Source: Cyanobium sp. E1_MAG_00006 (GTDB lineage: Bacteria > Cyanobacteriota > Cyanobacteriia > PCC-6307 > Cyanobiaceae). Taken from it: a stretch of DNA of 64,000 bases. Position 1 is the stretch's first letter. Every line of letters starts with the position of its first letter. The notes under the pieces were generated by a model. The model was not told the DNA's origin and made no database searches. It saw nothing but the letters and a program-made list of their open reading frames with translations. The position numbers and the translations under genes were made by a program. The stretch is from assembly GCA_027488975.1 (NCBI GenBank), contig JAIYAQ010000017.1, positions 1 to 64,000 on the forward strand, read 5' to 3'. Shown one piece after another: positions 3,365-59,995 of the stretch.

Positions 3365-3889
3365 TCAGCGGTCGACCAGGGCCTGAAGGATCAGTGCGGG
3401 CTTGTAGAGGAGGAAGCCGATCAGGGCCGGCAACAGCTCCAGCTGGGGCAGCTTGGCGGCCGCCAGGACAAGCACCACCGGGACGAGTAGCTGAAGCTTG
3501 CCCACCTTCTTTGATCCATTGCCGAGCTTCGCCACGCTGCGAGCGAGAAGCCGCAGGTAGAAAACACCGGCCAGAGCACCCACCAGCAGGCAGCCGGCGG
3601 TGTGTGGATCGAAGATCAGGGCCGTGATCGGTACCGCCGTGGCGGAGACGATCAGGGTGGCCAGGATTAGGCGGCGCTGCAGTCGCCCGTAGGCGTCGTC
3701 ACTCTCCGGGGTATCCGGAGTGGACGGCACCGGTTCCAGAGCATCGGTGCCAACGACGGAAGCCTCAGCAGGTTCCAGAGCGCTGGATTGAACCGGATCG
3801 GAACCCGGCCGTGAATCCGTGTCGCTTTGAAACAGTGGGGTTGCCGGCAAGGGCGCCGATGCTCTGAAAAGGCGCGCGGAATCTATCAC
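3365..3889 (-). CDS. atp1: ATP synthase-associated protein I (Atp1-like)
   Basis: This small membrane protein is encoded at the head of the ATP synthase operon; family members are thought to assist c-ring or F0 assembly. The recognisable part is the last 110 residues: [20 protein letters not shown] opens the first of about four hydrophobic helices. The start is uncertain. I chose GTG 3889 because it overlaps the stop codon of the upstream methyltransferase gene (GTGA). It gives an acidic, proline- and serine-rich N-terminal extension of about 70 residues that is unusually long for the family. A farther upstream ATG would overlap the methyltransferase by about 90 bases. Confidence 0.75.
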
Positions 3890-5130
3890 GCAGATGCGGC
3901 CGGTTTGGGCTGAAGCAGCAGAGCCCGCTGCCCGACCAGCTGCCGGGCCACGCTGGCGATCCGCGCCGGTTCCCATCCCAGCGCCAGCGCGCCGATCGGC
4001 GTATGGGACGACGCCTGCTCAAGGGCCAGCAGCAGCTCCACCCCCTCAGCGCTGAGATCCAGGGGGGCCATGTCGGAATCGAGCAAGGCGGTACCGGGCC
4101 AGCCCCAGAGGCAGCGATTGCGCTGACCCGAGGCCGTCAGCACGGCCGCGTCCTCAGTCCAGTCGTATTGCGGCAGCGCCCCCTGGCTTAGGAAGAACTC
4201 GAAATGGCTGATGTCGGGATCGAGGTCCTCCACCAGCCGCCACTGCTGCAGCGGCGGCAGCGCCAGGGCCCGCTCCAGCAGCTCGCCCTGGAGCAACCGC
4301 GCCAGATCCCAGACCTGCGGATTGGAAAAGCCGGAGAACTGAAGATCAGCGCTGGCCACGAAGGCCATCAGCCGCTCAAGGCTGTAGCTGGTCTCCTGCG
4401 GGTGGAGGTACATGTCGGCGAAGTTGGCATCGGCGGCGCAGTCGATCGCCCAGCGCTGCTCGTGGTGGCAGCGCAGCCGGTTGTGCTCAGGCAGATCGGC
4501 AAACAGGCGGCGCCCCAGCCGCAGCCCCTGCTCACCCGTGCCAACCCCGAGGGCTGTCAGCGCCCGCTGGGTGCGATGGATCTCCCAGCGACCAGCATCC
4601 GCATACAGGAAGAGATGCAGCAGGCCACCGGGGCGAAGCAGTGCAGCGAGGGCCCGCAGGCCCGCTTCGGGCTCGCGCAGGTGGTGCAGCACCCCCACCG
4701 AATTGATGTAGTCGAAGGGGCCTTCACCCTGCAGCTCCAGCAGGCTGCGGTTCTCGATCCGCACATGGGCCTGCCCAAGGCCTCCGGATCGCGACAGACG
4801 CTCGCGAGCGACCGCGAGGGTGCCGGGGGAGATGTCCACCGCCAGGATCTCGGCGCCGGGGTTGAGGTGAGCCAGGTAATCGGTGCTGACGCCGGTGCCG
4901 CAGCCCGCATCCAGGATCCGCAGGGGGCGGCCATCGGGCCGTGGTGGCGGCAGGGCACCGCTGCAGGCGGCGAAGGCCGTGTCCACACACCAGCGCCAGT
5001 TGTATCCGGGCGGCGGACCGTCCTGGAGTGGATCACCGGGATAGGGAAAGCGGTCGTAGAACGCGCTCACCATCGGGGTGGCGGCGTCTGCGTGGGCCGC
5101 TGGCATGTCTGGGGGCATGGCCTGGGTCAT
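3886..5130 (-). CDS. Class I SAM-dependent methyltransferase
   Basis: This is a probable methyltransferase of unknown substrate. The Rossmann SAM-binding core is clear: motif I LDAGCGTGVSTDYLA, then an acidic residue ending strand 2 (AVDISPGTL), motif IV-like FDYINSVGVLHHL and the loop LLRPGGLLHLFLY. The region before motif I (FYDRFPYPGDPL) and the roughly 200 residues after the core match cyanobacterial proteins commonly annotated only as methyltransferase. I chose ATG 5130 (414 residues); ATG 5073, at MVSAFYDRF, is also possible. It lies immediately upstream of, and overlaps, atp1, so it may share the ATP synthase promoter. It diverges from apcE. Confidence 0.8.
   Translation of the reverse strand: MTQAMPPDMPAAHADAATPMVSAFYDRFPYPGDPLQDGPPPGYNWRWCVDTAFAACSGALPPPRPDGRPLRILDAGCGTGVSTDYLAHLNPGAEILAVDISPGTLAVARERLSRSGGLGQAHVRIENRSLLELQGEGPFDYINSVGVLHHLREPEAGLRALAALLRPGGLLHLFLYADAGRWEIHRTQRALTALGVGTGEQGLRLGRRLFADLPEHNRLRCHHEQRWAIDCAADANFADMYLHPQETSYSLERLMAFVASADLQFSGFSNPQVWDLARLLQGELLERALALPPLQQWRLVEDLDPDISHFEFFLSQGALPQYDWTEDAAVLTASGQRNRCLWGWPGTALLDSDMAPLDLSAEGVELLLALEQASSHTPIGALALGWEPARIASVARQLVGQRALLLQPKPAASA

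Positions 5131-56463: not shown

Positions 56464-56467
<4 letters not shown>
55838..56467 (-). CDS. Exported DUF1400-domain protein
   Basis: The start is GTG 56467, overlapping the lepA stop (GTGA), and gives 209 residues with a signal peptide ([21 protein letters not shown], then PVRAAA). The following segment ([24 protein letters not shown] to [13 protein letters not shown]) is a DUF1400-like domain, which in many cyanobacteria precedes an alpha/beta hydrolase. Here no hydrolase follows, and the last 40 residues ([18 protein letters not shown]) look non-conserved. It is either a stand-alone DUF1400 protein or a truncated hydrolase. It is probably co-transcribed with lepA. Confidence 0.65.
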
Positions 56468-58272
<1,805 letters not shown>

Positions 58273-58410: not shown

Positions 58411-58998
58411 GTGGCCGAGCGCCCAGCCAAAGGTAGTGAGCTGCGGCGAACGGACCGCGAGGAAGGCCTAAAGCTCCTCTATGGCGCTGCCCTCGATGTG
58501 GCCCGCCAGAAGAACCAGATTCCCGAGGGAATAATCCCGTCTTTCGACCATTCAAAGCTGGAGCGGGGCCAGTACAAGCTCCGTTCCAATACGGATCGTT
58601 TGATCGCAACGGTCACCCTGCATGAGGCCCGCTCGATGCTGGCCTACCGGCGGGAGGTGGCCCGCAAAATCCTTGATCGCGCCAAGGTCTTCATCAACTC
58701 CGAGAATCCCGGCAACCAGGAGAAACGTCTGATCCGGATCCAGCCCCTGGAGCTCCGTGCCCTGGCCTGGGCGATCGGCACCGGCCGCCGCATCCCCCAG
58801 CCTCCCGATGCCCCAAAGGAGCCATGGCTGACCATCGGCCTGCTGTTCTGCTGCCTGGTTCCGGGCGTGCTGCACCTGCTCCAGCGCCAGCGGCTACAAA
58901 AGGATTACAAGCAGAACCTTGCTGATCTGGTCGACCGCTGGCGGATGGCCGCCAAGCCGGATCCGCCCGATAGCTTCTTCTCGCTCTACCACCTCTGA
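58411..58998 (+). CDS. Unrecognised membrane-anchored protein, paralogue 1
   Basis: The family is not recognised. The GTG 58411 start gives 195 residues: a soluble part, about residues 1-135, and one hydrophobic segment (LTIGLLFCCLVPGVLHLL) near residue 145, followed by a basic helix and a conserved-looking end (RWRMAAKPDPPDSFFSLYHL). The next gene has the same layout and shares blocks: LERG..KLRS, RALAWAIGTGRRIP, VPG and the C-terminal RWR.A..P.PP.SF..LY. They are tandem paralogues. No catalytic motif is evident. Confidence 0.7.
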   Translation: MAERPAKGSELRRTDREEGLKLLYGAALDVARQKNQIPEGIIPSFDHSKLERGQYKLRSNTDRLIATVTLHEARSMLAYRREVARKILDRAKVFINSENPGNQEKRLIRIQPLELRALAWAIGTGRRIPQPPDAPKEPWLTIGLLFCCLVPGVLHLLQRQRLQKDYKQNLADLVDRWRMAAKPDPPDSFFSLYHL

Positions 58999-59062
58999 GC
59001 TCAGCCGGCTCTGGCGCCACCAAGCCTGCTGCTCGTCTGTCTCCGTCTCCCCAGCCCCTTCC

Positions 59063-59653
59063 ATGCCGTCGCGGATTGTCAGCGATCGCCGCGTCACCGA
59101 GCGCGACGATGGCATTGAGCTCCTGTTCGGTGCTGCGCAGGACCTGGCACGCCAACAGGGCAAGCTGAGCAAGCGGATCCAGGCCTGCCCGCTGCACTCG
59201 GGGCTGGAGCGCGGCCTGTTCAAACTGCGCAGCACGCGCAACACCCTGATCGTTGCCCTGCCGATCCAGGAGGTGCGCGAGATGTTGTATGAGCGGCGCA
59301 AACTCGCCTGCCAGGTGATCGAGAGTACCGGCATCGAGATCAACGCGGCCAACCCACCCAGCCTCGAGCGCCGGAAGGTTCGGGTCCAGACCCAGGATGT
59401 GCGCGCTCTGGCCTGGGCGATTGGCCACGGCAAGCGCGTGCCCTACTGCCGGACGCGCCGCTGGGCCGTATTGGAGGCGGCGTTGCTGCTGCTCTGCGGC
59501 GTGGTTCCTGGCCTGATTTACCTCAGCTGGCAGGCCAAGCGGCGGCAGCGTTACCGGCGCGAGCTGCAGGAGCTGGTGAAACGCTGGCGCGCTGCATGCC
59601 AGCCGGAACCACCGGCGAGTTTCTACCGGCTGTACGGCCATCAACATCAGTGA
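59063..59653 (+). CDS. Unrecognised membrane-anchored protein, paralogue 2
   Basis: This protein of 196 residues is a paralogue of the gene just upstream. Shared blocks are LERGLFKLRS, RALAWAIGHGKRVP, the hydrophobic segment ending GVVPGLIYL, and the end RWRAACQPEPPASFYRLY. Identity by eye is about a third overall, so the duplication is not recent. ATG 59063 lies about 65 bases after the first copy's stop, and both are probably one transcript. The positive charge just after the helix suggests cytoplasmic orientation of both termini. Confidence 0.7.
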   Translation: MPSRIVSDRRVTERDDGIELLFGAAQDLARQQGKLSKRIQACPLHSGLERGLFKLRSTRNTLIVALPIQEVREMLYERRKLACQVIESTGIEINAANPPSLERRKVRVQTQDVRALAWAIGHGKRVPYCRTRRWAVLEAALLLLCGVVPGLIYLSWQAKRRQRYRRELQELVKRWRAACQPEPPASFYRLYGHQHQ

Positions 59654-59734: not shown

Positions 59735-59995
59735 ATGAGCAACGAAACAGCCACCTCTGATCCGCAGGCTCTGACGATCGAGAACGTTGAGCGAACCCTC
59801 GACGAACTTCGCCCTTATCTGATGGCCGATGGCGGCAATGTTGAGGTTGTCGAGATCGACGGACCGATCGTCAAGGTTCGCCTGCAGGGCGCCTGCGGCT
59901 CCTGCCCCAGCAGCACGATGACGTTGAAGATGGGCATCGAGCGCAAACTGCGTGAGGCCATTCCTGAAGTGTCTGAGGTTGTGCAGGTTCTCTGA
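59735..59995 (+). CDS. nfu: NifU-like iron-sulfur scaffold (Nfu)
   Basis: This small Fe-S carrier passes clusters to target proteins, notably photosystem I and ferredoxins in cyanobacteria. It has 86 residues: one NifU C-terminal domain with the cluster-binding CGSCPSS (CxxC) in [19 protein letters not shown]. The start ATG 59735 is preceded by TAGAAT, a possible -10 box, at about 59696. It is a stand-alone gene. Confidence 0.93.

Follow-up and report, generated by a model that had tools for sequence, protein, structure and literature searches.

A tandem paralogue pair between lepA and nfu in a Cyanobium genome joins a mobile N-terminal module to a putative membrane tether

Pmp3 proteins are short and contain two segments. 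SHOCT is a short mobile domain found fused to many different partners, membrane proteins frequently among them, and its function was given as unknown in the part of the description consulted (PMC3581485). Type IV pili are present in about one quarter of marine picocyanobacteria, where they serve for staying suspended and for evading grazers, and the pilin cluster of strain WH7803 includes genes marked as being of unknown function (sections consulted of PMC7994388).

The window analyzed here is a stretch of 64,000 nucleotides from Cyanobium sp. E1_MAG_00006, whose family we take to be the Cyanobiaceae, the picocyanobacteria. A preliminary description had placed two tandem plus-strand genes, encoding proteins of 195 and 196 residues, between lepA and nfu, and both this arrangement and every one of the sequence blocks quoted as common to the two proteins were confirmed (Table 1). 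When the products, A and B, were compared by BLASTP, 75 of 185 residues (41%) were identical in an ungapped alignment (E 4e-48), which is far beyond chance. A and B are old duplicates, that is, tandem paralogues, and no third copy was found in the window's genome.

Table 1. Positions of the gene pair, its modules and its neighbours in the window
Feature	Position	Strand	Remarks
Gene A	58411..58998	+	195 aa, GTG start, in-frame TAG directly upstream; intact orthologue in G004
Gene B	59063..59653	+	196 aa, ATG start; intact orthologue in G004
N-module of A	58435..58695	+	helix, three strands, helix; alignment A3, model pLDDT 92.7
N-module of B	59081..59338	+	alignment A2, whole-B model
C-module of A	58756..58995	+	RALAWAIG helix, hydrophobic segment kinked at Pro-Gly, basic tail; alignment A1
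C-module of B	59402..59650	+	alignment A1, whole-B model
Hydrophobic membrane segment of A	58822..58884	+	residues 138-158; hydropathy
Hydrophobic membrane segment of B	59462..59536	+	residues 134-158; hydropathy
nfu, downstream neighbour	59735..59995	+	PF01106, E 2.4e-30
lepA, divergent upstream neighbour	56464..58272	-	ORF of 602 aa, named by its sequence

The reading frames of both genes are uninterrupted in G004, a close relative, with amino-acid identities of 89% for A and 87% for B; lepA is 99.5% identical between the window and this genome. The dN/dS ratios relative to G004 were 0.16 for A and 0.30 for B, compared with 0.014 for lepA and 0.20 for serS, and both copies are thus maintained there. 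In a third relative (G006), both are broken by stops and frame changes. The decaying homologues were read at locus L038 (6286-7411) in G006, yet pilin genes are retained in this genome. In the tree, A and B grouped at 86/93 support, and the pair of G174 was separate, forming a group of its own. Since the A/B branch lies below the starred level, a duplication within the genus is likely but not certain. Duplication is not required, given that most carriers have a single copy.

In the preliminary description, A and B were regarded as one family. Their standing as paralogues of common architecture was upheld, but a single undivided family was ruled out, because many profile matches were restricted to the N-terminal or the C-terminal half, the former being common to differently built proteins. 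Along the 194 profile positions, N-only matches ended at positions 61-116 and C-only matches started at positions 104-119. The two halves of A and B are separate modules, namely the N-module and the C-module. The latter comprises the RALAWAIG helix, the short hydrophobic segment kinked at Pro-Gly and a basic, amphipathic tail with a W..aGkP.P motif. Profile matches confined to the C-module half were observed in other proteins, and the C-module was also present in proteins ending in SHOCT, whose score exceeded the Pfam cut-off for L059 and L065 but fell below it for L060, L061 and L064.

The N-module, of about 75 residues, was found ahead of at least eight kinds of partner. The combinations include the C-module alone (as in A and B), the C-module followed by SHOCT, plain hydrophobic segments, SHOCT without the C-module (L138, over the cut-off), a Zn-ribbon (L186 in G206, 1471-1917; Zn_ribbon_13 (DUF2082), PF09855, E 4e-24) and DUF4177-like regions (below the cut-off). 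The N-module also occurs in tandem with itself (L135 and L137) and as free-standing proteins of about 75 residues (L187, L188 and L191). An odd fusion was noted at L145 (G149, 3822-5039), where the N-module is followed by a MuF/SPP1 gp7-like stretch and TPR, all scoring below the cut-off. Among 222 family genomes that were at least 95% complete, 44 were matched by the N-module profile; when 290 genomes of the class were searched, it matched 7, every one of them from the window's family. The N-module of A matched at E 1.9e-23, A itself being a row of that profile, whereas matches from outside the profile rows were obtained in G350 (E 5.0e-12), on contig C12 of G006 (6.2e-12) and in G016 (2.0e-11). 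As a control, the reversed profile gave 0 matches below 1e-3, against 61 for the forward profile, many of which had helped to build it. As regards family membership, A and B are themselves profile rows, and independent members were recognized by the N-module profile or by alignment A1 alone. The N-module, its mobility and its spread are well supported.

HMM searches of A and B against Pfam and NCBIfam returned 0 matches up to E 1, in agreement with the earlier statement that no described family was recognized, and the matches to PHROGs were weak (best E 0.033). When 46 N-modules were searched against Pfam at E 0.01, none matched. One of the 46 matched a methyltransferase in NCBIfam (E 0.0097), and inositol monophosphatase-like PDB sequences were matched at E 0.095-0.18; both were taken as chance. 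A literature search by title and abstract, with supplements and most subscription papers outside it, yielded nothing on the A/B genes or the N-module, and the genes go unmentioned in the portions consulted of PMC3581485, PMC12288463 and PMC7994388.

The N-module of A, modelled alone, was predicted as a helix, three strands and a helix (pLDDT 92.7, pTM 0.80), and the model of whole B had a pLDDT of 80.7. Compared with the PDB, the N-module gave a best E of 0.8 in Foldseek and a best Z of 3.7 in VIA-align (81 residues, 5.2 Å), so that its model appears to have no convincing PDB neighbour, an absence that does not prove a new fold. For whole B, no convincing neighbour was found in the PDB by Foldseek or VIA-align, and none in the viral structure library. 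The membrane anchoring claimed for both proteins was supported by hydropathy. The hydrophobic segment spans 20-29 residues in 22 of the 24 members of alignment A1; the 39-residue stretch in G232 and G061 suggests room for a hairpin. In most members the flanks of the segment are basic on both sides, and no strong hydrophobic stretch was seen by hydropathy in the first 110 residues. On the latter ground, a membrane hairpin with both ends in the cytoplasm is the likeliest topology that we infer for A and B.

To describe the distribution, 400 genomes of the window's family were searched. A single-sequence search gave matches in 31 of them, a profile built from 24 full-length members matched 43, and the intact full A/B architecture was present in 20, whose 24 genes make up alignment A1. 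In the class, 10 of 388 genomes were matched at E <= 0.01, seven from the window's family and three from outside it. The three outside matches (E 1.8e-4 to 0.006, one with an internal stop) appeared unrelated by eye and were taken as chance. In the genomes sampled, the A/B architecture is thus confined to the window's family, within which it occurs patchily, and the lineage restriction that the preliminary description had set out as a check was observed. Most members of the genus do not have the pair: intact A/B genes were found in 2 of 25 genomes and wrecks in one more; the genes were present in 3 of 40 relatives.

Of the 20 carrier genomes, 16 have the A/B-type gene beside lepA, and nfu is close in nearly all, although in G232 it lies about 5 kb away. 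In 8 of the 12 loci measured, 57-59 nt separate the end of the gene from the point where the nfu match begins, and one chromosomal site is kept across four genera. Just past nfu in G083 (L043, 9954-10355), the remains of a further A/B-type gene were noticed. In the genus, nfu was found in 23 of 25 genomes. Where A/B were missing, the translated lepA-nfu gaps were either short or contained other ORFs, and no divergent A/B homologue was hidden in them. In such genomes the lepA-nfu interval is a swap site (L083, L084, L086, L092, L093, L095, L096 and L100): an ORF resembling a small multidrug-resistance transporter occupies six gaps of about 490-540 nt, and a glycerol-dehydrogenase-like ORF occupies the other two, which measure about 1.3 kb; both ORFs were named by eye.

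The surroundings of the A/B-type genes were searched for type IV pilins with a prepilin motif of our own definition. Around the A/B-type genes, 17 of the 19 stretches fetched contained prepilin-like ORFs (66 in a total of 291,525 bp). The same genomes supplied 20 control stretches, together 340,020 bp long; only one of these contained the motif, in a sequence that was not pilin-like. When ten motif-bearing ORFs were tested, eight matched Pfam N_methyl or GspH at E 0.01, three of them over the cut-off. Overall, prepilin-like ORFs were found near 18 of 21 A/B-type loci, against the 1 of 20 controls; the stretches read at the other three (L039, around the G004 pair, L055 and L057) had none. No prepilin-motif ORF was found near the SHOCT-carrying relatives (L059-L061, L064 and L065) or in the window itself. 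On the window's contig, three prepilin-like ORFs begin 7.7 kb past B. Just beyond the window end (C16:64692-69249), an ORF of 923 residues precedes these three, and other genera likewise have a relative of this ORF next to pilins.

In G174, two prepilin-like genes sit between the two A/B-type copies. A second, different pilin/kinase locus carries an A/B-type gene in G124, G138 and G176 (two other genera), with the kinase in all three and the pilin in two. Thus, the recurrent placement in pilin gene clusters by which a type IV pilus accessory class would be recognized was observed. Moreover, three N-module proteins (L132, L134 and L136, in G397, G180 and G205) have a pilin-like C-terminal region; a profile of this region gave pilin-like ORFs as its top matches (best outside match E 5.6e-6, next 0.008). 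Behind their N-module comes a hydrophobic helix that leads into a pilin-like ectodomain, with no recognizable prepilin motif. They are possibly pilin-like proteins with a retained cytoplasmic head.

At the level of whole genomes at least 97% complete, N_methyl pilins were present in 18 of 18 A/B-type carriers, compared with 134 of 193 genomes overall (hypergeometric 0.001, with kinship ignored). The carriers are related, and the pilus-context counts are therefore not independent. No N_methyl pilin was detected in G013, G206, G260, G267 and G288, all of which have N-modules of other architectures. Most members of the genus have pilin genes near nfu despite having no A/B; A/B are thus unnecessary for keeping pilin genes there, and the neighbourhood may be inertia.

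From this gene context and the fusions, a pilus role may be inferred for A/B, and we tentatively favor the reading, to which we give somewhat less than even confidence, that they are duplicated membrane-tethered adaptors whose N-module docks a partner and which work at the base of the type IV pilus. The C-module would tether the proteins to the membrane, both ends probably facing the cytoplasm. The mobile N-module would dock its carrier onto a common partner, while what follows it varies among the carriers. For the A/B architecture, the likeliest workplace would be the inner-membrane base of the pilus, where the proteins would modulate the assembly or sorting of particular minor pilins. A broader version, which we consider rather unlikely, is that the N-module is an undescribed picocyanobacterial docking tag bringing diverse cargo to one partner, A/B being the copies at the pilus base. 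Such a tag would be a small cytoplasmic domain, sometimes free-standing, and its cargo would include membrane hairpins, pilin-like ectodomains, Zn-ribbons, and DUF4177-like and SHOCT proteins.

The pilin-rich surroundings may also mislead. A/B could be accessory membrane proteins without a pilus role, held by inertia in a variable lepA-nfu interval, an account that is plausible but on the doubtful side. It would explain why genus members lacking A/B have other ORFs or little in this interval, why pilins lie near nfu even in these genomes, and why G006, having lost both copies, keeps 7 N_methyl pilins. However, inertia at one site does not readily accommodate the gene's presence at the second pilin/kinase locus (G124, G138 and G176), nor the joining of the N-module to pilin-like regions elsewhere. 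An improbable reading centers on the membrane segment: with its Pro-Gly kink, it would act on membrane potential or lipid packing in the manner of Pmp3, with the N-module as a regulatory head. Seven of the 24 A1 members weakly match PF01679 (best E 0.00088), but A and B of the window had no Pmp3 match up to E 1, and there is usually one short segment here, against the two of Pmp3.

The patchy distribution (3 of 40 relatives) and the MuF/gp7-like stretch on one N-module protein would fit mobile or defence cargo, e.g., an anti-phage or superinfection-exclusion membrane protein. This is very improbable in our estimation, given that the gene is kept at one chromosomal site across four genera, and that no relatives were found in 50,697 phage records (queried with B and another N-module) or in a scan of viral contigs with A. 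With no match in either, a phage origin was rejected; plasmids searched with one N-module gave no match.

The N-module is a confidently predicted, mobile domain that neither the Pfam nor the NCBIfam copy searched contains, and it brings together, as a single group open to testing, 'hypothetical proteins' from one cyanobacterial family that differ in their build. Among the members of this family are the most abundant photosynthetic cells of the ocean. Should A/B work at the base of the pilus, they would be named candidates for accessory factors among the cluster genes of unknown function.

A and B were also compared with described systems. With Pmp3 (PF01679), the likeness is limited to the membrane segment that contains Pro-Gly, which is weakly similar in 7 of the 24 A1 members; A and B themselves had no match and, unlike Pmp3, have a large soluble N-terminal part. 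SHOCT (PF09851), as described in the consulted part of PMC3581485, has about 30 residues in two helices near the C-terminus and is widespread in bacteria. It shares with the N-module its shortness, its mobility, its many partners and its frequent occurrence in membrane proteins, whereas the N-module has about 75 residues arranged as helix-three strands-helix, stands at the N-terminus and was encountered in no family but the window's. Some A/B relatives carry SHOCT behind the same C-module; A and B are without it, having no Pfam match up to E 1, and it occurs in distant relatives only. Unlike minor pilins, A and B have no prepilin motif and no match to N_methyl (PF07963), and their hydrophobic segment begins about 134-138 residues from the N-terminus. 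With the picocyanobacterial minor pilin cluster, as far as it is covered by the sections consulted of PMC7994388, the A/B-type genes share a similar neighbourhood in several genera, and in three genomes the N-module is fused to a pilin-like region.
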